This document shows positions 50,335 to 62,026 of a stretch of DNA of 64,000 nucleotides, piece after piece. The notes under the pieces are model-generated. The model saw only the letters and a program-made list of their open reading frames with translations, did not search any database and was not told the origin of the DNA. The stretch covers positions 62,001-126,000 of the forward strand of contig JAPOOG010000083.1 of the NCBI GenBank assembly GCA_026713545.1. Reading direction: 5' to 3'. Each line of letters opens with the position of its first letter. Positions within the stretch are counted from its first letter, which is position 1. A program made the position numbers and the translations under genes. Source of the DNA: Bryobacterales bacterium. GTDB lineage: Bacteria; Acidobacteriota; Terriglobia; Bryobacterales; UBA6623.

Positions 50335-51435
50335 TCAGATCAATCGGCGGTCGAAGGTTACGGATTTGATGAGCGCGAATACGGGAGTTCCCTTCGTGAG
50401 CCCCAGGTCTTCTACGGCGGCTCTTGTCAACCTCGCTCGGAATCGGGTGGTTCTCAGGGCGACATAGACTTCGGTGAAAGCGGTGTCGGGCTCGGGGGTG
50501 ATGTCGTCCACGGCGCCGGGGAGGATGTTGCGGATGCTGATGCCTTCGGGCCGCCGGGTGGCCAGGGCGACGTCGCGGGCCCGGATGCGGAGGCGGATGG
50601 TGTCGCCGGGCTTGAGCTGGCCGACCATCGGCATTTTAAGCGTCTCGCCGTCGAGGTCGAGATGGGTGAGCGCGAGGCGCTTGTCTTGTCCGGTGACACG
50701 GGCCTCGACCAGGACGCCGGCTTCGAAGCGGCCGGTGATGGGCTGGAGGTCGAGGCGTTCGACGATCGCGGCGGCGGGGCCGTAGGCTTGCGGGCGGCCG
50801 TCCGCCAGGACGAGCACGCGATCGGCAAGCCGGACGACTTCTTCCAGGGCATGGCTGACGTAGATGGTCGGGATGCCGAAGCGCTTCGGGATCTCTTCCA
50901 GGTAGGGCAGGATGTCGGCTTTGCGTTCGAGGTCGAGGGCGGAGAGGGGCTCGTCGAGCAGGAGCAGCTTGGGGCGGGTCAGGAGCGTCCGTGCGAGGGC
51001 GACGCGTTGGCGCTCTCCCCCGGAGAGCGAACCGATGCGCCGGTCCAGTAGCGGCCGAAGGTCGAGGGCGGCGATGACGTCGCCGCGGTTGAAGCCGGCG
51101 GCGCGGGTTCGGCTGCGCTTGTCGGCAAAAGCGAGATTGCCGGCGACGCCAAGATGCCCGAAGAGGCGCGCGTCCTGGAACATGAAGCCGACGGGCCGGC
51201 GGTGCGCGGGGACGTTGACTCGGGCCTCGCTGTCGAACCAGACTTCGCCGCCGAGGGCGATGCGTCCGGCGCGCGGCGCCTCGAAGCCGGCGATTGTCCG
51301 GAGGAGCGTGCTCTTGCCGCCGCCGCTCGGTCCGAAGAGCGCGGTGACGCCGTCGAGGTGCAACTCTTCTGCGACTTCGAGGTCGAATCCGGGAAAGGAA
51401 AGCCGGACCCGGAGGGACAGCAACTCAGCCGACAT
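50335..51435 (-). CDS. modC: Molybdate ABC transporter ATP-binding protein
   Basis: A 366-residue ABC ATPase. Walker A is GPSGGGKST, the signature is LSGGERQRVALA and Walker B LLLLDEPLSALD. The C-terminal 130 residues form a TOBE/Mop-type domain, usual in ModC and involved in regulation by bound molybdate. ATG 51435 is used (MSAELLSLRV); an upstream in-frame start would extend into modB. It overlaps the modB end by 11 bases, giving translational coupling. The complex imports molybdate for molybdenum cofactor. Confidence 0.95.
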   Translation of the reverse strand: MSAELLSLRVRLSFPGFDLEVAEELHLDGVTALFGPSGGGKSTLLRTIAGFEAPRAGRIALGGEVWFDSEARVNVPAHRRPVGFMFQDARLFGHLGVAGNLAFADKRSRTRAAGFNRGDVIAALDLRPLLDRRIGSLSGGERQRVALARTLLTRPKLLLLDEPLSALDLERKADILPYLEEIPKRFGIPTIYVSHALEEVVRLADRVLVLADGRPQAYGPAAAIVERLDLQPITGRFEAGVLVEARVTGQDKRLALTHLDLDGETLKMPMVGQLKPGDTIRLRIRARDVALATRRPEGISIRNILPGAVDDITPEPDTAFTEVYVALRTTRFRARLTRAAVEDLGLTKGTPVFALIKSVTFDRRLI

Positions 51436-52096
51436 GCACGGGGAACCTTCGATTGAACGTGTAGATGAGCAGCAGGACACAGAAAGAAAAAGCGACGAGG
51501 CCCGCCGAGAGGACGTGCGCCTCGGCATAGCGCAACGTCTCGACATGCTCGTAGATGGCGATCGAGATGACGCGGGTGCGTCCGGGGATGTTGCCGCCGA
51601 CCATCAGAACGACGCCGAATTCACCGATGGTGTGAGCGAAGGTGAGCACGGCCGCGGTGAGAAAGCCGCGGGCCGAAAGAGGTACGGCGACGTTGAGGAA
51701 GGCGTCGAGCGGCGAGGCGCGCAGGCTGGCGGCGGCTTCCATCGGCCCGCGGCCTACCGTTTCGAATGCGCTCTGAAGCGGCTGCACCATGAAGGGCAGT
51801 GAATAGAAGATGGAGGCGACGACCAGACCGCTGAAGGAAAAGGTGAGGGCGTCGCCGGTAACATCGACCCAGAGACCGCCCAGGAAAGACGCGGGGCTGA
51901 GGATGACGAGCAGGTAGAAGCCGAGCACGGTGGGCGGCAGGACGAGCGGCAGCGCCGTGATTGCCTCGACGGCGGGCTTGAGGCGCGAGGTCGTTGTGGC
52001 GAGCCACCAGGAGATGGGCGTCCCCAGGACGAGCAGGATGGCGGTGGTGACGAGCGCCAGATGGAGCGTGAGCCAGAGAGGTCCGAGGTCGGGCAT
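51425..52096 (-). CDS. modB: Molybdate ABC transporter permease
   Basis: A 223-residue inner-membrane protein with the usual five or six helices and the binding-protein-dependent loop EAAASLRASPLDAFLNVAVPL (EAA motif), which contacts the ATPase. The pattern VILMVGGNIPGRTRVISIAIYE is typical of ModB/CysT-type permeases (here VVLMVGGNIPGRT). It lies 3 bases past the modA stop and overlaps modC by 11 bases. Confidence 0.95.
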   Translation of the reverse strand: MPDLGPLWLTLHLALVTTAILLVLGTPISWWLATTTSRLKPAVEAITALPLVLPPTVLGFYLLVILSPASFLGGLWVDVTGDALTFSFSGLVVASIFYSLPFMVQPLQSAFETVGRGPMEAAASLRASPLDAFLNVAVPLSARGFLTAAVLTFAHTIGEFGVVLMVGGNIPGRTRVISIAIYEHVETLRYAEAHVLSAGLVAFSFCVLLLIYTFNRRFPVHVG

Positions 52097-52099
52097 GGA

Positions 52100-52882
52100 T
52101 CAGTCCACGGCGTAGCCGAAACTTTCGATGACGCCGCGGGATTCCTTCGACTTCAGGTAGTCGAGAAAGGCATGCGCGGCGGGGTTGTCGCTGCCTCGGT
52201 TGAGCAGCACGGCGTCCTGGCGGATCGGAGTGTAGAAGTGTTGAGGTACATCCCATCGGCTGCCCTTCTGTCGATTCCGGGGGCTGAGGACATGGGACAG
52301 CGCGACGAAGCCGATGTCGGCGTTGCCGGTGGCGACCAGGGCGTGCGCCTGGCCGATGTTTTCGCCCATGACGATGCGGTGGCGGAGGGTGTCGAAAAGG
52401 CCGAGGGCTTTCAGTGTTTCGCGGGCGGCTGCGCCGTAAGGGGCTAGGTCGGGGTTGGCGATGGCGAGCTTGTCGAATGCGCCGGCCCGGAGGATTGCGG
52501 GGCCGGCGGTGGAAATGCATTTGGGGTCGGAGTTCCAGAGCGTGAGACGTCCGATGGCATAGGTGAAACGGGACCCGGCGACGGCCTGGGATTCGGTTTC
52601 GAGCAGTCGAGGGCGGTGCTGATCGGCAGCCAGAAGGATATCGAAAGGGGCGCCGTGGCGGATTTGGGCGTACAGTTTGCCGGTGGAGCCGGTGGTGATG
52701 GTGAGGGTATGCTCGCTTGTATCCTCGAAGTGGGTTGCCAGGTGTTCGACCGCTTCGGAGAAATTGGCGGCGACGGCGACGAGGGCATCCCCGGCGTATG
52801 CGGAGGAGGAGAGGAATGCTCCCACTAGAGCGGCCAGGGCTGTCAGACCAGGCAAGCGTCCTTTTGGCAAGCTGATAAGCAC
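52100..52882 (-). CDS. modA: Molybdate-binding periplasmic protein
   Basis: A 260-residue ModA. The GTG 52882 start gives a normal signal sequence (VLISLPKGRLPGLTALAALV, cleavage after AYA), as the upstream frame adds about 39 residues of unlikely sequence. The mature part begins GDALVAVAANFSEAVEHLA. Residues that make the molybdate site are visible in the family pattern: AANFSEA, TGSTGKLYAQI and NPDLAPYGAAA. The end is YAVD. First gene of the modABC operon; the region 52883-53144 ahead of it must hold the promoter, but I see no clear box. Confidence 0.93.
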   Translation of the reverse strand: MLISLPKGRLPGLTALAALVGAFLSSSAYAGDALVAVAANFSEAVEHLATHFEDTSEHTLTITTGSTGKLYAQIRHGAPFDILLAADQHRPRLLETESQAVAGSRFTYAIGRLTLWNSDPKCISTAGPAILRAGAFDKLAIANPDLAPYGAAARETLKALGLFDTLRHRIVMGENIGQAHALVATGNADIGFVALSHVLSPRNRQKGSRWDVPQHFYTPIRQDAVLLNRGSDNPAAHAFLDYLKSKESRGVIESFGYAVD

Positions 52883-53144
52883 TACGGTTTTCCCAGCGTA
52901 ACACCGGCGGAGAGTGAGGCAGAGCCGGACGGAAGCGAAGACCATTCCGGTCGTCCGGGGCTGCGGGTGGGCCGTCGCGTGTCCGTGGACTTTCCTCAAA
53001 TAGCGGTGTTGCTCGGACTACGGCTCTGGCGGATCGTAATTCTCTACGGGCAGACTTTGGTCCGACCCGGCCACGTTCCCGCTAGGATCGCCGGGCGTCT
53101 TGGGATAGAATGGCGCTTAAGCTGGTTGTGCAGGAGGTGTTCTG

Positions 53145-53711
53145 ATGGACAAACAGTACCGCCCGATGGTTGATTTCTTGTTGGCCGAAGGCACGGACAA
53201 GGTGCCGCACTCCAGCACGAATTTTTTGGCGCATCTCATCGGGGTCTACACGGATCTGGGAAAGTGGGGTTGCCACGAAGCTGTCTGTCGGGCCGGAATG
53301 TTCCATTCCATCTATGGAACCGAGCCCTTTCAGGACTTCAAGCTGGGGTTGGAGCGGCGCGGGGAAGTGCGGGAGTTGATCGGAGAGCGCGCCGAAGGCC
53401 TCGCCTACCTGAACAGCGCGATGACGCGCACGACCTTTGACGAGACGGTTGAGAAGGGTTCAGGTCCGCATTCGATGATCGACCGATTCACGGGAAAGCG
53501 CGTTACGTTCTCGTCGCAAGAGTTCGAAGACCTGCTGAACGTCCACTTGTGCGACTGGCTCGAGCAAGTCGAGCGCTATGGGGAATGGGATAGCCGGCGA
53601 GCGGCGTTCCGCCGGATCGCCGAGAGGCTGGGCGGCGTTGCGCTGGATTCCTACGACGAGGTCTTCGCGCGCGAGCCTCGCGCTTCCATGTCCGCGCCTG
53701 CCACGGGGTAA
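53145..53711 (+). CDS. DUF6817-like protein
   Basis: A 188-residue cytosolic protein. ATG 53145 has AGGAGGT six bases upstream, one of the best ribosome binding sites in the window. The pattern HLIGVYTDLGKWGCHEAVCRAGMFHSIYGTE, with paired His residues, resembles DUF6817 and related HD-like helical folds, which points to a metal-dependent hydrolase-like fold. No enzymatic activity is known. It lies divergent from modA and convergent with the WYL regulator. Confidence 0.7.
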   Translation: MDKQYRPMVDFLLAEGTDKVPHSSTNFLAHLIGVYTDLGKWGCHEAVCRAGMFHSIYGTEPFQDFKLGLERRGEVRELIGERAEGLAYLNSAMTRTTFDETVEKGSGPHSMIDRFTGKRVTFSSQEFEDLLNVHLCDWLEQVERYGEWDSRRAAFRRIAERLGGVALDSYDEVFAREPRASMSAPATG

Positions 53712-53814
53712 TGCGATAAGGGACTGCCCGATTCTTCAACGTGACCCGGTGCTTGAGGCGCCAACAGTCGTCGCGCAACCTCCAGTCGAGAAGCACTGCT
53801 ATCGAGCTTCGAAG

Positions 53815-54828
53815 TCAGGATCGGGTCTCTTGATCGGGACACTCGGCGTGGTGGTGAGCCGTGAGCGAGGCGCACATTTCGGCCAGCCGTCGGCGAAGGG
53901 CGGCTGGCCGTTCGACCGTGACGCCCTCTCCCCAGGTCACCAGGTGCCAACACATTTCCTGCATTCCGCCGGCCTTGAAGCGCACCGTAAGCGAACCGTC
54001 GTCGTTCTCGACAGCGGTCTGGCCGGGATGGAACTGAAATGCCTTCGCGTCCGGCGCGGCGTCGGCATCGAAGCGAAGCGCCACTTCGACGGGTTCCTCC
54101 TGAAAGGTGCCGAACGAGCGCTCGGCGTAGCTCCGTAAGTCGAAGGCCGGGTCGCGCTCGAACGCTTCATCTGTGATTCGTGCTTCGCTCACCTTCGCAA
54201 GCCGCCAGAGCCTTGTATCGTCTGCCCAGTCTGTCCGTCCCACCAGGAACGCGCGGTTGCCGTAGAGTACACCGTAGGGCCTGACGCGATGGCGGCTGCG
54301 CTGTCCCGTTGTCCGCGAGAGATAGTCGAACTCGATCGTGCGGCGCGTCGTGATGGCGTCGCGCACGAGCGTAAGCAGGCCTTCTTCGAGATTTTGCTTC
54401 GGACCGGGACGCATCGCGAGTCCTTCCACTTCCATGAGCGCCCCCAGGGCGGCTTCGAGTTCCTCGGGGGAGGGTCGGCGCGCTACGGCGCGCAGCTTGA
54501 CGGCAAGGCCGCGAAGCCTGTCGGCACGTTCGACGAGGCCGGTGCGTTCAAGATGCCCGGCCGCCGATTCGAGTTCCACCAACTCCTCGGCGGAGAAGTG
54601 GATGAATTGCCGCAAGGGGGAAGACTGAAGGCGCCAGTGGATGCGCCGGTCTCCGGTCTCGACGGTCTCCAGTGGCCCGAAAACCGCCTCGACGGCATCG
54701 CGCATCCGCTCCGCCGTGCGCCGGCTGACGGAGAAACGATCCTGGATGTCGGTGAGGGTCACTCCGCCTCGCATCCCCTGAAGGCGAATGGCCAGTGACA
54801 AAATATCCTTGACCCGATCAAACCGCAT
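53815..54828 (-). CDS. WYL-domain transcriptional regulator
   Basis: A 337-residue regulator. The N-terminal helix-turn-helix occupies about residues 5-60 (GGVTLTDIQDRFSVSRRTAER). The central WYL domain carries TIEFDYLSRTTGQRSRHRVRPYGVLYGNRAFLVGR at about 165-200, where FLVG replaces the usual WYL-type tryptophan stretch. The C-terminal WCX part (about 240-320) follows. WYL proteins sense nucleic-acid or nucleotide ligands and often control defence genes. It lies 181 bases downstream, on the same strand, of a nuclease/AAA+ operon, so it may regulate it. Confidence 0.87.
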   Translation of the reverse strand: MRFDRVKDILSLAIRLQGMRGGVTLTDIQDRFSVSRRTAERMRDAVEAVFGPLETVETGDRRIHWRLQSSPLRQFIHFSAEELVELESAAGHLERTGLVERADRLRGLAVKLRAVARRPSPEELEAALGALMEVEGLAMRPGPKQNLEEGLLTLVRDAITTRRTIEFDYLSRTTGQRSRHRVRPYGVLYGNRAFLVGRTDWADDTRLWRLAKVSEARITDEAFERDPAFDLRSYAERSFGTFQEEPVEVALRFDADAAPDAKAFQFHPGQTAVENDDGSLTVRFKAGGMQEMCWHLVTWGEGVTVERPAALRRRLAEMCASLTAHHHAECPDQETRS

Positions 54829-55009
54829 TCTGATGTCACCTCACGAGCGGCTCATCCCCACAACTATCCCGTGAATATCGGGGGACAGCGGCAATTGCCG
54901 CTTGGCATTGCAATACTCGGCTGAGCCGAAGAATGGCGAGTTTTACTCACACGCCGCTCGGATGAAAATGTGCGTAACGGACGGACCTGGTAATTGGAAG
55001 CAAATTTGA

Positions 55010-55612
55010 CTACTCCGCGCAGCTACGTTCCGCCAGCGATAATATTTGCTGTACCTCTTTGCGATTCCACCATACTTTCAGTAGATCAGTTATTTCATCC
55101 ACCATTCGCTCTCGGCTTTTAGACTTAAGTGCCCTTCTCAAGAACTTTTCGCTACTCCAGTTTCTCAGATCATCACTCAAATGATCCCAGTGTAGAGGTG
55201 TCTCAGAGTTCTCGCGCGACTTCCTTAATTCATTGAGTTCTTCCATGAGATCTTGGCGTTTTGAAATTTTTTCTGTTAGCTCCTTGGGGATATACAGCCA
55301 GATGTATACATCACTCCAGTTGCTTTTATCTGTTCGCAACTGAACACCTGTTTCATCAACGTTGACGCTTTTCGGCCAATCCTTGCTGCGGAGTATGAGC
55401 CGTGCTTGAGTAGCCGATATATCTTTGTTGTAAAATTCAATAATTTCGCAGTCTCCTTCGGAGAAACGCCTTTTGATGCCGTCTAGAACTTCTCTGATCA
55501 ATGTTTCCCGGACACGCGGCATGGCCTCTTCGACCCGGAAGGCTAGGTTGAGATGTTCTTCATTCTCCATGATGAAATTCGCCGTCTCATCAAGGATGAC
55601 GTCGGTTGACAT
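55010..55612 (-). CDS. Separate C-terminal half of a PD-(D/E)XK_4-type nuclease (probable)
   Basis: A 200-residue protein with no signal peptide. It begins MSTDVILDETANFIMENEEH, resembling the region that normally follows the catalytic domain in long PD-(D/E)XK_4 proteins. It starts 37 bases after the stop of the nuclease gene, and AAGGGAG lies 7 bases before ATG 55612. Joining the two frames needs a shift near 55660. So it is either a true second subunit or the tail of a broken gene. Local base composition is clearly more AT-rich than the surroundings, a sign of acquired DNA. Confidence 0.6.
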   Translation of the reverse strand: MSTDVILDETANFIMENEEHLNLAFRVEEAMPRVRETLIREVLDGIKRRFSEGDCEIIEFYNKDISATQARLILRSKDWPKSVNVDETGVQLRTDKSNWSDVYIWLYIPKELTEKISKRQDLMEELNELRKSRENSETPLHWDHLSDDLRNWSSEKFLRRALKSKSRERMVDEITDLLKVWWNRKEVQQILSLAERSCAE

Positions 55613-55649
55613 AGTATTGCTCCCTTGTGTTGGATGCTCGATGTGCCTG

Positions 55650-56435
55650 TCAAATAAAACGGCCTTCGGATATATATTCCAATAGGTCTCTCAATAACCA
55701 TCGCACTCGATCGGCCTCACACTGCTCCCAGCATTGGCGGACCCAGTTTTCGAGTGATGGAGACTCGTTGTCGGTCTCTTGGTAGGGGACGGTCAGACAG
55801 TGCTTTTTTTCGTCCGTGTCATCCGGTAGAGTTTTTGGACTGCTTGCGTCGCCGCTCCAATACAACATCCAGGCAGTTCCGTCTCCACTATGCCGCACCT
55901 TGTCCTGCAAGAATTTCAGGTAATCCTTGACTTGATCTTCCTGTTCCTCTGCCCGGGGTTTGTTCTCGATTCCGACCCAGTGGTTGTTTGGCATCTCCAA
56001 AACGATATCGATCCTTCGCAGCTTGTCCGTTGGATATTCAAGATGTACCTTGGCCTGGTGGATATCCGAAAGCGGAAACTCTCTGCGCAATGTCTCGTCC
56101 AGAGAGCGGTGAATCCCAACCAGAAACAAGCGAAGAAAACGTTCGCCTTGACCATGTCTGCCCGCCGGGTCAAGAAGGTCGGCGAATATGCGCGACAGAT
56201 CGGTTTCCCGCTCACGGAAGTACTCGAAAACGGAAAACTTTGTTGCGGCTATCCGATCCAGTTTCTCCTGAGCTCGCTTGGCGTATTTGGCCACCGGGCT
56301 GAGACCGGAAAAAAATCTCCTCAGCCCGTTCCCGTGGTCTTCGACGGCATCTTCTATCTCCCGGTCAAGACCATCAAAAAAGCCCTTTAGACGGGTTTTG
56401 TGGTCTTCAGTAGTAGTTTCCGTCTGATGTAGCAT
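55650..56435 (-). CDS. PD-(D/E)XK nuclease domain protein
   Basis: A 261-residue protein that carries the PD-(D/E)XK_4 catalytic core. The active-site residues are D143 in RRIDIVLE and E157-x-K159 in VGIENKP; the upstream KFSVFEYFRERETDLSRIFADLL block is family-specific. ATG 56435 is chosen, with AGGAG 8 bases upstream. An in-frame TTG three bases earlier is possible. It follows the AAA+ gene by 17 bases and is in the same operon. The family occurs in restriction-like and defence loci; here the AT-rich composition points to horizontal transfer. Confidence 0.85.
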   Translation of the reverse strand: MLHQTETTTEDHKTRLKGFFDGLDREIEDAVEDHGNGLRRFFSGLSPVAKYAKRAQEKLDRIAATKFSVFEYFRERETDLSRIFADLLDPAGRHGQGERFLRLFLVGIHRSLDETLRREFPLSDIHQAKVHLEYPTDKLRRIDIVLEMPNNHWVGIENKPRAEEQEDQVKDYLKFLQDKVRHSGDGTAWMLYWSGDASSPKTLPDDTDEKKHCLTVPYQETDNESPSLENWVRQCWEQCEADRVRWLLRDLLEYISEGRFI

Positions 56436-56452
56436 CAATCAAACTCCTGTTC

Positions 56453-58495
56453 TCACGTCCGAAAGCCCACTGACCTCGGATAATCCGGCTTGGCTTCGCA
56501 CTCCATGCGCAACATATTCGCAAGCTCCTGTGGGTCTCGCAAGCAATCGAGAAGCTCGGCTTTCCGGCGCACGACAGCGAAGTCGCCCGGTGTCAGGGCG
56601 GCAAGATCTTCGAGCACGGCCGGGGGAGTAAGCGCAAAATAGTCCTGGAATGCAGCCGTCACCTGTTGAGGCAAGAGATAGTCGAGAGCGATCTTGAAGG
56701 TGAAGCGCCGCAGCGTCGCCGGATCGAGGTGTTCACCGAAGTTGGTCGTGCAAGCGAAGGGGAGCGGGTGGCTTTCCATCCAGGTCAGCATTTCGTTGAC
56801 TTGGCTGATCTCCCAGTTTCTTACTGCGAAACGCCGGTCGGCCAGCAGGGAATCGGCTTCGTCGAAGACCAGGAATGCCTCCGAGTTTCGCGCCTCGGCG
56901 AAGGCTGCCGCAATCAGCTTTTCGGTTTTGCCGACCCACATCGACATCAGGTCGGATGCTCTCTTTTGCACGACTTTGAGGCCGAGCCGGTCGGCGAGAT
57001 GGCGGACGAACGCGCTCTTCCCTGTGCCGGGCGGTCCTTGCAGACAAAGCGAGTAATGCCGCAGACCGCTGCCCGCGAGACGCTCCGCGAGCCGGACCGG
57101 GTTCGTATCGGCGCGGATCAGTGCTGTATCGAACTTCGCCGACGCTTGTTGACGCGGCGGCTTCACGCCGGATAGCACCCGCGACAGACCCTTTACGCCG
57201 CGGCGAACGTCGGCGATGGTTCCTCCGCCGAGCCGCGCAGCGGCGGTGACCCCGGCGGCCACGCCCGGTGTCACGTCGAACTCCACGGCGATGGCTCGCG
57301 CTTCTTCTTCGCCCGATTCGATGCCGTGACGAGCAAGCTGCCGCGACCAGATTCGAGTTCGGACTTTAGGCGGCGGTTGGCGCAGCTCCAGGGCGAACAT
57401 CATGCGGCGCAGAACGGTGGGGCACGTGTCCCGGGCTGAGTTCGAGGTCCACAGCGTGGGTGCCGGCGCCTGCTCGAGCAGGCGGTTCATGAACACCTTG
57501 GAGCCTTCGGCTCGGAGATGCTTGGGCACGTCGAACGGCATTCCGGCCCAAGGATGGGAAAGCAGGTCCTCCATCTCGTCGAAGAGCAGGATGGACCCGC
57601 GGCGAAGCGCCAGTAGGCGCTGGACAAGCCGGAGTTCCTGAAGCCTCTCGTGACGTGACGGCTCGCCGCCGCCGTGGCTGCTCGATTCGCCGACAGTATA
57701 AAGCGGTGCTTCCAGCCGCGCGGCCAGCGTCTTGCAGAACTCGGTCTTGCCGGTGCCCGGAGGCCCGTACACGAGGACGTTCACGCCCGATGCGCCGGTT
57801 TGCAGAGCCCCTTTCAGTACCCGTTCGACATGGTCACGATTCTCAGCTACGTGATCGAAATCCGACCAGCGGAGATCACCCGGGGGCGCCTCGTCGAGCA
57901 GCAGCCGCTGCGCGTCCGAATCGGCCTGATTCGAAACCCACTGCAGCCGATTCAGCCGGGCGATGGGCGTCAGGTCGCCATCGCACCCGATGAATACAAG
58001 CCCCGATTTCACGAGTGGCGCATCGGGCGCCAATCGGCTGAGGATCGTGTTGGGCGATACGCCGAGGAAGCAGGGCAGAGCTGGGCTTCTGCTAAAAAGT
58101 GCCCCCCGCCTACTGTCGAATATGCTGTCCACCATCGACTCGATGGTTGGCAGCACGCGGTAGAGCATCACGAACTCCAGAATTTCAGTATCCGTTCGCG
58201 AGAGGCGCATCGCCTTTCCGAGATACCGAAGCCGCCGCGCCAAGCGGTCTGGCCGTGCCCGAATAGCCACCTTATATTGGTTTTCAAGAGCTTCTCTCAG
58301 ATTCTCCCATTCCGGTGCCGGCACTCCTCGGCACAGCCCGTCTTTGGACGTCGGCGGACTTTCGAACTCCAGCTCGCTTTCGTGTTCGAAGACCCACTTC
58401 GCCAGTCCTGTCGCATTTGAAGAACTGTGTCGAAGTCGCGAGGCGGCGTTTGACAGGTAGAAGAAGACAAGGCGGCGTTCGTAGGCGGTGAGCAT
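56453..58495 (-). CDS. Double-AAA+ ATPase
   Basis: A 680-residue protein with two AAA+ modules. Module 1 has Walker A GPPGTGKT at 244-251 and Walker B ILLFDEMED at 302-310. Module 2 has Walker A GPPGTGKS at 487-494 and Walker B FLVFDEADS at 541-549, with a sensor/finger stretch TTNFGEHLDPATLRRF around 583-598. The first 230 residues are a helical region with no named domain. The start ATG 58495 is used over an upstream frame start at 58537. It is first in an operon with the nuclease. It may unfold or load a target for the nuclease, but this is inferred from context. Confidence 0.85.
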   Translation of the reverse strand: MLTAYERRLVFFYLSNAASRLRHSSSNATGLAKWVFEHESELEFESPPTSKDGLCRGVPAPEWENLREALENQYKVAIRARPDRLARRLRYLGKAMRLSRTDTEILEFVMLYRVLPTIESMVDSIFDSRRGALFSRSPALPCFLGVSPNTILSRLAPDAPLVKSGLVFIGCDGDLTPIARLNRLQWVSNQADSDAQRLLLDEAPPGDLRWSDFDHVAENRDHVERVLKGALQTGASGVNVLVYGPPGTGKTEFCKTLAARLEAPLYTVGESSSHGGGEPSRHERLQELRLVQRLLALRRGSILLFDEMEDLLSHPWAGMPFDVPKHLRAEGSKVFMNRLLEQAPAPTLWTSNSARDTCPTVLRRMMFALELRQPPPKVRTRIWSRQLARHGIESGEEEARAIAVEFDVTPGVAAGVTAAARLGGGTIADVRRGVKGLSRVLSGVKPPRQQASAKFDTALIRADTNPVRLAERLAGSGLRHYSLCLQGPPGTGKSAFVRHLADRLGLKVVQKRASDLMSMWVGKTEKLIAAAFAEARNSEAFLVFDEADSLLADRRFAVRNWEISQVNEMLTWMESHPLPFACTTNFGEHLDPATLRRFTFKIALDYLLPQQVTAAFQDYFALTPPAVLEDLAALTPGDFAVVRRKAELLDCLRDPQELANMLRMECEAKPDYPRSVGFRT

Positions 58496-58757
58496 GGCGT
58501 ATTCCGTGTTCCTGGCTCTCACGAGCGAGAGTAACACCGCAATGCGTCAGATTCGGACGCACTAACGTGCGCCCACAAAATATTTTTGGGTTCGGTAAAA
58601 ATACGGCGTATCAGCGCTTTGCAAACACGCACAAACTCCGTGCCATCTCTGATTCGGTCTGTGGATCGGCCTTCGATGCTCTCCCTGGACAGGCCGCCCG
58701 TTCTCAGCCTGTGGGTGTGACGGCCATCACGACACCGATCATCGTTGGGGATCTCAG

Positions 58758-59510
58758 CTAGAGGCGGCGAAGGTGGAACCCGCCGTCTACGTCGAATGCT
58801 TGTCCGGTGGCGTAGTCCCAATGACCGTCGGCGATGGACCGCACGGCTCGGGCGATGTCCTCCGGGGTTCCGAGGCGGTTCTGGGGCAGCAGCCCTTCCG
58901 CGGCCAACTTCTCGTATTTGGCGAGAACGGGCGCCACCATGTCCGTGCGGATGATGCCGGGGCGAATCTCGAAGACGGTGATGCCGTCGGCCGCGAGGCG
59001 GTCCGCGAAGAGCGCAACGGCCATGCCGAGGCCGGCCTTGGAGACGCAGTACTCGCCGCGGTTCGGCGACGACGTATATGCCGAGATGGAGGTGATGAAG
59101 ACAATACGGCCGGAACCGTTCTGTTGCATCCAGCGGGCCGCGGCTTGCGTCAGGAAATACGGACCCTTGAGGTTGGTGTCGAGGACTTCGTCGAAACTCT
59201 CTTCGGTGGCCTCCAGCAGATCGCGCCGCTCGCGGGGCGCCATCCCGGCGTTGTTGACGAGCAGATCGAGCCGCCCGAATTTTTCCCGGCAATAAGCAAG
59301 CAGCGCCTCGCGGTCTTGCCTTTGAGCGAGGTCGATCTTGAAGATCTCGACCCCGGATTCCTCCTGCAGGCTCCGGGCGGCGTCTTCGCGGCTGCGGTAG
59401 GTCGCAATCACGCGATGGCTGCGGGCGAGATCGCCTGCAATGGCACGGCCGATGCCACGGCTGCCGCCGGTGACGATCGCCACAGGTCGTGAGGAGGGTT
59501 CAGTTGTCAT
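58758..59510 (-). CDS. Short-chain dehydrogenase/reductase (3-ketoacyl-ACP reductase-like)
   Basis: A 250-residue SDR. The cofactor loop TGGSRGIG near residue 15, NNAG near residue 87, catalytic serine (ITSISAYT) and Y-x-x-x-K (YCVSKAG) near residue 155 are all present. The C-terminus GFHLRRL completes the standard length. The NADP(H)-type TGGSRGIG with a following Arg favours NADPH. It starts 15 bases downstream of gdhA, so it is likely co-transcribed. Substrate unclear; FabG-like is the nearest family name. Confidence 0.92.
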   Translation of the reverse strand: MTTEPSSRPVAIVTGGSRGIGRAIAGDLARSHRVIATYRSREDAARSLQEESGVEIFKIDLAQRQDREALLAYCREKFGRLDLLVNNAGMAPRERRDLLEATEESFDEVLDTNLKGPYFLTQAAARWMQQNGSGRIVFITSISAYTSSPNRGEYCVSKAGLGMAVALFADRLAADGITVFEIRPGIIRTDMVAPVLAKYEKLAAEGLLPQNRLGTPEDIARAVRSIADGHWDYATGQAFDVDGGFHLRRL

Positions 59511-59525
59511 GAGCCATCCGCTCCG

Positions 59526-60893
59526 CTACACGATTCCATAAGCCAACATCGCATCGGCGACCTTGACGAATCCCGCGATGTTGGCGCCATCGACGTAATC
59601 AATGTATTCGTCCTTGCCATTGTGACCGAACTCGACGCACTTGGCGTGGATGTTCTTCATGATGTCCTGCAATCGGCCGTCCACTTCCTCCCGGGTCCAG
59701 GAGATCCGCAGCGCATTCTGACTCTGCTCCAAGCCTGAGACGGCCACGCCGCCGGCGTTGGCGGCTTTTGCCGGGCCGAACAAGATCCTCGCCTCCCGAA
59801 AGGCTTGCACGGCATCCAGCTCGGTCGGCATGTTGGCGCCTTCCGCCACTGCCAGCACGCCGTTGGCCAATAGCGTCTTGGCCTGTTCGAGGTTCAACTC
59901 GTTCTGGGTCGCGCACGGAAAAGCCAAGTCGCAGGGCGTGGCCCAAGGCCGCTGCTTCTCGTAGAACGCGCAGCCGAATTTCTTCGCGTACTCCTTGGTC
60001 CGCCCGCGGCGCACTTCCTTGAGCTGCTTGAGCCAGTCCAACTTCTTGTCCCGAATCCCGTTGGGATCGTGAATGAACCCTCCCGAGTCGGACGCCGTGA
60101 CGACCTTGGCGCCCAATTCGTTGAGCTTCTCGATCACATAAAGCGCAACGTTCCCCGATCCGGAAACCACCGCTGTCTTGCCGGCGACGCCGTCTCCGCG
60201 TCGGGCCAGCATGTTCTGCATGAAATAGACCGCGCCGTATCCCGTCGCTTCCGTCCGAACGAGACTGCCTCCGAACGCGAGGCCCTTGCCGGTGAGGATG
60301 CCCGTGAAGCGGTTTTCCAGACGCTTGTACTGCCCGAACATGTAGCTGATTTCCCGAGCGCCCACACCGATATCACCCGCCGGCACGTCGGTGTCTTCAC
60401 CGATGTGCCGCGAGAGTTCAATCATCAATGAGTGGCAGAAGCGCATCACTTCGCGGTCGCTCTTGCCCTTCGGGTTGAAGTTCGATCCGCCTTTGCCGCC
60501 CCCCATCGGCAGCGTCGTGAGGCTGTTCTTGAGCACTTGTTCGAAACCGAGGAACTTCAGCACGCTCAGGGTCACCGAAGGGTGAAAACGCATCCCTCCT
60601 TTGTAGGGCCCGATCGAGTTGTTGAATTGAACCCGCCAGGCCCGATTCGCCCGAATGTTACCCTTGTCGTCCTCCCACGTAACGCGAAAGATGATCACGC
60701 GGTCGGGCTCCGTCATGCGTTCGAGGATCTGTGCCTTGCGGTAGCGCGGGTGCTCGAGCAGGTACGGCATCAGACTCTCGGTAACCTCGCGGACCGCCTG
60801 GTGAAATTCCGGCTGTCCGGGATTCCGCCTGACAAGACCGGCCATGAAGGCATCGATCTCGCGCTGAACCTCGCGCGTAGCTGGTCTCGTCAT
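59526..60893 (-). CDS. gdhA: NADP-specific glutamate dehydrogenase
   Basis: A 455-residue GdhA. ATG 60893 is used: GGGAGG lies 6 bases upstream, while the longer frame start would add an unlikely leader. Substrate-binding and catalytic segments match the family: GPYKGGMRFHPSV, the lysine block GGGKGGSNFNPKGK, DVPAGDIGVG, and NMPTELDAV. It converts 2-oxoglutarate and ammonium to glutamate with NADPH in the cytosol. Two acetamidase/formamidase genes in the window would release ammonium for it. Confidence 0.97.
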   Translation of the reverse strand: MTRPATREVQREIDAFMAGLVRRNPGQPEFHQAVREVTESLMPYLLEHPRYRKAQILERMTEPDRVIIFRVTWEDDKGNIRANRAWRVQFNNSIGPYKGGMRFHPSVTLSVLKFLGFEQVLKNSLTTLPMGGGKGGSNFNPKGKSDREVMRFCHSLMIELSRHIGEDTDVPAGDIGVGAREISYMFGQYKRLENRFTGILTGKGLAFGGSLVRTEATGYGAVYFMQNMLARRGDGVAGKTAVVSGSGNVALYVIEKLNELGAKVVTASDSGGFIHDPNGIRDKKLDWLKQLKEVRRGRTKEYAKKFGCAFYEKQRPWATPCDLAFPCATQNELNLEQAKTLLANGVLAVAEGANMPTELDAVQAFREARILFGPAKAANAGGVAVSGLEQSQNALRISWTREEVDGRLQDIMKNIHAKCVEFGHNGKDEYIDYVDGANIAGFVKVADAMLAYGIV

Positions 60894-61054
60894 CAACAAC
60901 CTCCCGTCACGGTGCCGATAACACCAAACATCGGTCCAAACGTCCGCAAACAGCAGCAACTTCCGTCCGCGATTTTCATCTTGGCGGCCATAGACCTATG
61001 GTACTCTGATCCGGCATATCTTCATCATCAGTCTTCTACTCACTTTCCACTTAC

Positions 61055-62026
61055 ATGCAACGGATTCTTAGAGAGCAATCGAGGAAGTACGCTTTCAACT
61101 GGCAGGACGAGCCGCTGCTGCGGGTCCGTCCCGGCGAAAGCTTCGAAATCGAAACCTACGACGCCAGCGCGGGTTTCTTCAAGACGCCCGAGGACAAGGC
61201 CATTCCCGCCAAGCGACCCGGTTTCGATCGGGTTCCGCCGCTCTCGAATCCCATCGGCGGTCCTGTATACCTCGAGGGCGCCGAGCGCTACGACACCCTT
61301 GTCGTGACCATTGAGCATATCGAGGTCGCCGACTTTTCGTGGACCGCGAACGGACCGAAGCGCGGCCCTCTCGGTGAGTCCAACCGCTGGCCGGAAATCT
61401 CCGAGGAGTACACCACCTACATCTTGCGTCACGAGCCCGGAGCCAGCGGTTCGATGCGGGACGGCACGATACACTTCAACGACCGCATTTCGTGGCCGGT
61501 CACGCCCTTCGTCGGCACGATCGGAGTAGCGCCCGACCGGGAAGTCGCCACCAGCGGCGACGGCCAGGACGCCTGGGGCGGCAACCTCGATATCCGTGAT
61601 GTCGCGCCGGGCAATCGAGTTCATCTGCCGGTTTATCACGAAGGGGCTCTGTTCTATCTCGGGGACGTTCACGCCAGCCAGGGCGATACGGAATTCACCG
61701 GCACCGCAGCGGAAACGAACTCGACCGTCCGCGTCAAGTTGGAGTTGATCAAACAGAAGCGTCTCCCTTGGATACGCATCGAGAAGCCCGATTCCATCGT
61801 GTCGGTCTACGCCTATCGGCCCTTGGAGGTCGCCGTCGAGATCGCCACCCTCAATCTCATGGATTGGCTGATCACCGACTACCGCTATCCGCCCAACGAC
61901 GCCTACGCTCTGGTGTCCACCTGCCCGGACTTCAGGATCAACGTCTATCAGATGGTCAAGCTTGCCAATCTGAATTATGTAGCCGGGGCGGAGATTCCCC
62001 GGCGCTATCTCGACGCCTACCTGTAG
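61055..62026 (+). CDS. Acetamidase/formamidase family protein (second copy)
   Basis: A 323-residue member of the same family as the gene at 6722. The landmarks GTIGVAPDREVA, WGGNLDIRDV and GDVHASQGDTEFTG are conserved, including the family signature with D-x-H-A-S-Q-G-D. It differs from the first copy through most of its length and so is not a recent duplicate. ATG 61055 begins MQRILREQSRKYAFNW. It is divergent from gdhA by about 160 bases, so the shared region may coordinate amide use with glutamate synthesis. Substrate is unknown. Confidence 0.87.
   Translation: MQRILREQSRKYAFNWQDEPLLRVRPGESFEIETYDASAGFFKTPEDKAIPAKRPGFDRVPPLSNPIGGPVYLEGAERYDTLVVTIEHIEVADFSWTANGPKRGPLGESNRWPEISEEYTTYILRHEPGASGSMRDGTIHFNDRISWPVTPFVGTIGVAPDREVATSGDGQDAWGGNLDIRDVAPGNRVHLPVYHEGALFYLGDVHASQGDTEFTGTAAETNSTVRVKLELIKQKRLPWIRIEKPDSIVSVYAYRPLEVAVEIATLNLMDWLITDYRYPPNDAYALVSTCPDFRINVYQMVKLANLNYVAGAEIPRRYLDAYL

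Follow-up and report, generated by a model that had tools for sequence, protein, structure and literature searches.

Effector-swapping ATPase defence modules exist, HerA- and STAND-based systems being examples. Among other described systems, IetAS combines the anti-phage AAA ATPase IetA with a protease, PADLOC treats the nuclease family PDC-S26 (PF14281) as a stand-alone phage-defence candidate, and the WYL regulators CapW and BrxR bind palindromes of about 20 bp before defence operons (PMC9122588). Here, we describe a four-gene locus on the minus strand of a 64,000-nucleotide stretch of a Bryobacterales genome (GCA_026713545.1, contig JAPOOG010000083.1; the whole stretch is hereafter the window), which encodes a tandem AAA+ ATPase, a PDDEXK_4 nuclease subunit, a separate C-terminal subunit (C-subunit), and a WYL transcription factor. 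Sequence coordinates refer to the whole window, and L and G numbers denote the loci and genomes that were compared. We consider it fairly probable that the locus is a WYL-regulated, effector-swapping ATPase–nuclease defence module, with an anti-phage activity that we infer from sequence comparisons. The conserved unit consists of the ATPase, the WYL regulator, and a putative operator, whereas many different genes can take the place of the nuclease.

Gene Content of the Locus

The ATPase gene (56453..58495, minus strand; 680 residues; assigned by Pfam, conservation, an AlphaFold2 model, Foldseek, and VIA-align) is followed on the same strand by the nuclease gene (55650..56435; 261 residues; Pfam E value of 8.1e-23 and alignment with relatives), the open reading frame (ORF) of the C-subunit (55010..55612; 200 residues; PADLOC PDLC04983 and alignment, with the Shine–Dalgarno sequence AAGGGAG), and the gene of the WYL transcription factor (53815..54828; 337 residues; helix–turn–helix (HTH), WYL, and WCX domains, by Pfam). 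An earlier note, made from the DNA letters alone, had described four same-strand genes with gaps of 17, 37, and 181 bp, and all of them are present as it described. The AT-rich stretch that it also reported holds for the nuclease and C-subunit genes (GC contents of 0.515 and 0.454) and fails for the ATPase and WYL genes (0.624 and 0.647). Since the latter are at the level of the neighboring genes (0.60–0.65), the AT-rich part comprises the two middle genes only.

The ATPase and WYL Pair and Its Putative Operator

A scan of 84,980 species genomes recovered 369 ATPase relatives, and the best 79 of the 369 loci, chosen by similarity, were read. A WYL gene lies downstream on the same strand in 55 of the 79, directly adjacent (less than 400 bp) in 47 and after an insert of 0.7–3.1 kb in 8; it is divergent in 4 loci and lies about 6 kb upstream in 3. 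Two WYL clusters that are not joined at an E value of 1e-15 fill the role of ATPase partner, and the pairing is also found on plasmids and IMG/VR contigs at approximately 31–45% identity. The distances of the ATPases and of the WYL proteins are correlated (r of 0.55 over 46 loci; 0 of 2000 permutations). At the sequence level, the ATPase and WYL genes are conserved as a pair, and this pair has moved from phylum to phylum. The earlier proposal of an ATPase–nuclease module under WYL control is therefore upheld for WYL pairing and control and is revised for the nuclease, which is not fixed: homologs of the ATPase regularly lie without PDDEXK_4, a finding that, if joined by conserved housekeeping positions of the ATPase gene, the earlier note had expected to tell against its proposal, and many exchangeable genes take its place.

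The window WYL protein scores above the Pfam cut-offs for WYL (43.3 bits) and WCX (54.5 bits), its HTH gives a weak Pfam match (E value of 0.056), and the PADLOC WYL model spans residues 9–310; its gene is the only PF13280 match in the host genome. A 21-bp palindromic putative WYL operator, GTGCGTCCGAATCTGACGCAT, is located on the minus strand at 58542..58562, 47–67 bp before the ATPase start. This operator is the sole exact match in the host genome, and its matrix score of 31.8 is far above that of any other site in the 64 kb. The 21-bp palindromic consensus, ATACGTCCGAATCTGACGCAT, is derived from 39 relatives and the window, with sites 55–73 bp (once 123 bp) before the ATPase start. At scores of at least 14, 57 sites precede ATPases, compared with 16 at other positions in 1.34 Mb and 3 in shuffled sequence, counts in which one palindromic site can score on both strands. 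With the second WYL type, a different palindrome (TGCGAC-n7-GTCGCA) occupies the same place before the ATPase, which indicates that regulator and site change together. A palindrome of about 20 bp before the ATPase fits the published CapW and BrxR operators, and its conservation in 39 relatives and the window supports the predicted WYL control.

The ATPase leader (58496–58537 in the window; among the many relatives, for example, L002, L018, L025, L102, and L108) often contains a stem over the Shine–Dalgarno site, for example, CTCTCTCC...GGAGAGAG. The inverted repeat in the window leader (CTCTC-GCTCGT-GAGAG; 58516..58531, minus strand) folds weakly (z-score of -1.4); the stem sequences differ between loci, and the mean folding z-score over the loci folded is -1.44, the strongest being -5.3. 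These values are suggestive of a leader stem that could possibly provide a second, translational layer of control.

Domain Architecture of the ATPase

An N-domain (residues 1–205) precedes two AAA modules in a Cdc48/NVL/Rix7-like order, and Pfam AAA matches the protein in two stretches (E value of 8.8e-32). Both Walker A/B sets, which the earlier note had called intact, are so (G244..K250-T251 and D306-E307; G487..K493-S494 and D545-E546) and are conserved in at least 97% of 78 homologs; the RRM/RRF arginines are almost invariant as well. Based on this near invariance, both modules are probably active. Using the AlphaFold2 model (predicted local distance difference test score (pLDDT) of 85.8), the best Foldseek matches are tandem AAA unfoldases (Rix7 7t3i with an E value of 2e-16, NVL, and Cdc48; 9bji is also among the best), and VIA-align matches p97 (7lmz_A) with a Z of 18.0 over 436 residues and a root-mean-square deviation of 5.9. 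Given these fold matches, we infer that the ATPase is more likely a protein-remodeling motor than a DNA helicase. The window ATPase shares its D1–D2 arrangement with Cdc48/p97, NVL, Rix7, and AFG2; it differs from them in being only approximately 17–20% identical, and its N-terminal 205 residues are left uncovered by the Cdc48-type fold matches among the rows listed.

IetA is the nearest named defence model, and this match concerns the AAA modules only. We rejected an assignment to IetA given that the NCBIfam IteA/IetA model scores 91.5 bits in two partial stretches against a curated cut-off of 510. The window ATPase, unlike IetA, has two AAA modules and another N-domain; no subtilase-type protease partner was found by Pfam in the window operon or among the slot-gene families listed. 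PADLOC 2.0.0 has no component model covering most of the ATPase length, the best being that of IetA.

Exchangeable Genes Associated with the ATPase and WYL Pair

Cargo genes are positioned between the ATPase and WYL genes or just after the WYL gene. Among 108 slot ORFs, Pfam identified DUF2779 (5), REase-ARP (3), ADP-ribosylglycohydrolase (2), PDDEXK_1 (2), PDDEXK_13 (2), and PDDEXK_4 (2), together with a single Mrr and one weak PLD-like match, and further slot proteins are PD-(D/E)XK-like by motif only. No nuclease family is present among the 25 commonest families listed for 110 control neighbors. Among annotated plasmids of cultured bacteria, those of Rhodoferax (L116) and Diaphorobacter (L118) have the order ATPase-DUF2779-WYL; a Leisingera plasmid has ATPase-WYL-ADP-ribosylglycohydrolase-AddB-like-UvrD, with a similar arrangement in Fuscovulum; in Sphaerotilus (L114), WYL-ATPase-SIR2 directly follows BREX-2 genes; and on a Novosphingobium plasmid PDDEXK_4 adjoins the ATPase. 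Nuclease- or effector-like cargo has a GC content below that of the ATPase of its own locus in 22 of 23 loci (mean of -0.14; Wilcoxon p of 5e-7); the mean difference between WYL and ATPase genes is -0.003. Where the ATPases of two loci are at least 80% alike, a slot homolog is shared in 8 of 17 pairs; at 60–70%, it is shared in 3 of 271. The chassis of ATPase and WYL regulator travels together and the weapon is replaced.

The AddB/UvrD-like cargo of some loci is compatible with a DNA-damage or repair module, in which the WYL protein would sense single-stranded DNA and the ATPase, together with the nuclease or an AddAB-like helicase–nuclease, would process broken DNA and not invaders. This alternative has a precedent in PafBC and SiwR, WYL factors that respond to DNA damage and bind single-stranded DNA (PMC11804915, PMC10693628). 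However, the distribution is patchy and horizontally moving, with plasmid locations, and the SIR2, PLD-like, and Mrr-type cargo fits attack better; we consider a repair role improbable.

A recurring slot gene of approximately 210 residues encodes a cysteine-protease-like protein with a GLCGPYAIVNA motif (L025 6364-6906, L037 8500-9198, L038 13178-13813, and L076 2310-2981), and its L038 copy has no Pfam or NCBIfam match. The slot gene at L033 4029-4628 matches DUF6642 (3.8e-19), and its His and Cys motifs look caspase-like. Two plasmids (L119 7667-11647 and L121 6569-11398) carry the ATPase and WYL genes with two hypothetical genes (about 400 and 650 residues) and share a SNF2-type or helicase-related gene, perhaps constituting another effector set.

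The PDDEXK_4 Nuclease and Its Split C-Subunit

The window nuclease matches Pfam PDDEXK_4 with 81.8 bits (cut-off of 22.3), and its catalytic D143 and E157-N-K159, residues also pointed out in the earlier note, align with those of all single-chain relatives, so that the active site is intact. In the PADLOC model PDLC04983 (PDC-S26; 413 positions), the nuclease matches positions 21–190 and the 200-residue ORF positions 221–405, and the two proteins together align end to end with single-chain relatives. By alignment, the ORF is the C-terminal domain of the PDC-S26/PDDEXK_4 family as its own gene. The exact order of ATPase, nuclease, C-subunit, and WYL genes recurs in L169, from a genome (G173) of another family of the phylum, with 45% identity for the nuclease and 66% for the WYL protein. 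In L169 (8527-9648; G173:C269), the ATPase is 5' truncated and frameshifted and has lost the second Walker A lysine; the nuclease, C-subunit, and WYL genes are open.

Separate C-subunit copies are found in L149/L170, L160/L169, L010, and L016. As read from the sequences, the nuclease and C-subunit genes overlap by ATGA in G173 (4 bp) and by 8 bp in G223; in L010 and L016, the C-subunit gene precedes the nuclease gene. A frameshift cannot give this swapped order, so the split is genuine, and we reject the possibility, raised in the earlier note, that the nuclease is a pseudogene in all relatives. The fused copies have an ATG with a Shine–Dalgarno core at the domain border in 8 of 10 cases, compared with 3 of 55 other internal ATGs of these genes (Fisher, 1.3e-6); the analyst placed the border by means of the alignment, and the count excludes two more distant plasmid copies that lack a border ATG. 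Because this Shine–Dalgarno-preceded ATG is kept, fused genes, too, probably yield the C-domain as a subunit of its own. If this is true, the defence nucleases of the PDDEXK_4 family that are annotated as single proteins may consist of two subunits.

A C-domain that has its own gene or start in most copies would be made in excess, as would suit a toxin–antitoxin or addiction system in which the nuclease subunit is a toxin held in check by the C-subunit and the ATPase acts by unfolding or removing that restraint; relatives located on plasmids are likewise in keeping with this. We judge such a system quite improbable given that the fused forms keep both domains joined and that no informative fold match was obtained for the C-domain model (pLDDT of 75; best Foldseek E value of 0.028). 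With the same Foldseek result in mind, we claim no fold from a hint of Cas11/Cse2 similarity (E value of about 1e-3).

A set on a Croceicoccus plasmid (L112; ATPase, 256-residue nuclease, and 191-residue protein) was rejected as window-like: its nuclease is related to PDC-S26 only very distantly, if at all (E value of 6.6e-5), and the 191-residue protein has no family match. Phage carriage of a fused PDDEXK_4 relative was also dismissed, since neither phage records nor a tblastn search of IMG/VR gave a match. The host genome contains a second, fused PDDEXK_4 gene (L171 3776-5236, G000:C143; 487 residues) with an internal ATG preceded by a Shine–Dalgarno sequence at the domain border, and no ATPase, WYL gene, or operator was found in the 14 kb read around it.

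Acquisition of the Locus

The locus lies in an acquired island (53723..58757) delimited by blastn comparison with a genome of the same genus (G001; L144). The flanks are 92.1% (window 50999–53722) and 95.8% (58758–62025) identical with no match between them, and 2,015 bp of unrelated DNA in G001 take the place of window 53723–58757; this replaced site gives the insertion borders and indicates that the site accepts different inserts. The G001 insert (L144 2719-4733; G001:C153) contains a FecR-like ORF and a DNA methyltransferase-like fragment. At the border of the island, molybdate-transport-like genes (window 50335–53711; ABC ATPase, permease, and binding protein) and a small ORF (53145–53711) are conserved in G001. 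Besides the host, one of 150 order genomes sampled has a close ATPase orthologue (G016; 64%), nearly all of the others giving matches to generic AAA proteins only, and the two same-genus genomes have none. The replaced site and this rarity bear out the acquired island that the earlier note suspected, and the housekeeping positions that it thought might speak against a defence role were not encountered, with one close orthologue among the 150.

That another insert occupies the equivalent site in G001 also suits an explanation in which the ATPase and WYL genes form a self-standing stress module located at integration hotspots, with nucleases that came to lie in these islands by chance. Closely related ATPases can have different cargo (L003 and L004, 90% alike; L017 and L037, 85% alike), the cargo is unlike the chassis in GC content, and other PADLOC genes are present in the surroundings. 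We nevertheless regard this explanation as unlikely. Of 396 genomes of the phylum, only 13 contain PDDEXK_4; nevertheless, apart from the window, seven sponge loci have a strong match no more than approximately 3.2 kb from the ATPase (L010, L016, L035, L038, L049, L050, and L051). Copies of the WYL operator precede the PDDEXK_4 gene groups in three of these loci (L035, L050, and L051), tying the nuclease to the same regulator, and both the gene order of L169 and the shared DUF2779 slot of the two plasmids argue against chance residence.

Our preferred reading of an effector-swapping defence module must also accommodate several observations that weigh against it. No WYL gene is found within 6.5 kb in 17 of the 79 loci (a few of these at contig ends). 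In L032 and L060, the operator is retained upstream of the ATPase although the stretch read has no WYL gene; a regulator acting from elsewhere may serve these two loci. L169 has a decayed ATPase next to nuclease and WYL genes that persist, and ordinary genes are found in some slots (inositol monophosphatase, pyrE-like, and sulfatase). The Pfam contrast between slots and controls covers the 25 commonest families, with control singletons outside it. The control neighbors also match PADLOC defence models, which indicates that the wider surroundings are defence islands anyway, and the PADLOC tally was dropped as a test of slot enrichment for this reason. Finally, the cargo genes that entered the GC comparison with the ATPase were picked by eye.

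Habitat and Transfer between Phyla

Nearly all of the 79 relatives are from genomes of marine-sponge symbionts of about ten phyla, an assignment that excludes a few records without a placeable habitat. From naming patterns, we take the RHO/COS/CAR/APA, SB06xx, p16x, and OY28xxxx records to be sponge projects too. The jk18x record names match metagenome-assembled genomes (MAGs) of Ircinia sponges (PMC9531527), the EF100-94H03 record name matches Aplysina aerophoba (PMC5649159), and Rhopaloeides, Coscinoderma, Carteriospongia, and Ircinia ramosa are named in PMC8163846. A tree of 87 ATPases unites the 78 rows from the sponge-dominated set, window included, in one group (SH-aLRT of 99; stem of 0.48), and the plasmid and IMG/VR rows lie outside it. 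Phyla are intermixed in the tree (23 changes for 13 groups), and the window ATPase belongs to a clade (support of 99) that also holds three Binatia rows, two further Acidobacteriota rows, and one Delta row. Some MAG contigs are possibly misbinned (the nearly identical L069 and L070 are binned in different phyla); the Binatia, Gammaproteobacteria, Latescibacteria, Entotheonella, and Rhodothermales rows are on chromosome-scale or very long contigs.

Proposed Mechanism and Relation to Known Systems

We propose that a WYL dimer would bind the palindrome and hold down expression of the operon. During invasion, a nucleic-acid ligand would be produced or become exposed, and its binding to the WYL domain would raise expression. 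The ATPase probably forms a ring by which proteins are threaded or remodeled; it would recognize an invader structure through its N-domain and activate or deliver the nuclease, which would cut DNA. The C-subunit, with extra copies made from its own start, could be a specificity, adaptor, or restraining part. The effector would be exchangeable because the ATPase and WYL regulator supply sensing and control.

On a broader reading we are evenly divided, namely that the locus represents an unnamed, widespread family, shared across phyla in sponge microbiomes, in which a WYL-operator-controlled tandem AAA+ ATPase accepts exchangeable effector cassettes and the PDDEXK_4 version has a separately made C-subunit, through a split gene or a conserved internal start. 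The cassettes would include several PD-(D/E)XK families, DUF2779, AddAB-like, SIR2, PLD, and perhaps cysteine-protease-like proteins. If true, the regulator-plus-motor chassis could be recognized by its operator and unknown effectors found by reading the adjacent genes, and the family would be an example of a defence unit whose weapon is exchanged and whose sensor and control parts persist. The enrichment of defence genes that has been reported for sponge symbionts (PMC5649159, PMC9531527) would also gain a concrete element that these symbionts have in common.

No named system with the window set is present in PADLOC 2.0.0 or NCBIfam, in agreement with the earlier note, which knew of none with exactly these genes, and a literature search, mostly of non-subscription papers, found no paper on ATPase–WYL pairs with these effectors. 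HerA- and STAND-based modules likewise combine one conserved ATPase with different nuclease- or SIR2-type effectors; the locus differs from them in its tandem classical AAA ATPase and in a WYL regulator with its own operator. It shares with PDC-S26, a single-gene candidate, the nuclease domain, catalytic residues, and C-domain, unlike which the window form is split into two genes in an operon with the tandem AAA+ ATPase and WYL regulator. With BrxR and CapW, the WYL regulators of BREX and CBASS (PMC9122601, PMC9122589, PMC9122588), the window regulator has in common an N-terminal HTH, the WYL and C-terminal domains, and a palindrome of about 20 bp near the promoter of the accompanying operon; in contrast to them, its gene is at the end of the operon, its predicted target is a tandem AAA+ ATPase, and its action as a repressor is presumed. 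The parts are known and their combination is unnamed, and the kind of system to which it belongs, a modular WYL-regulated defence operon, is known.

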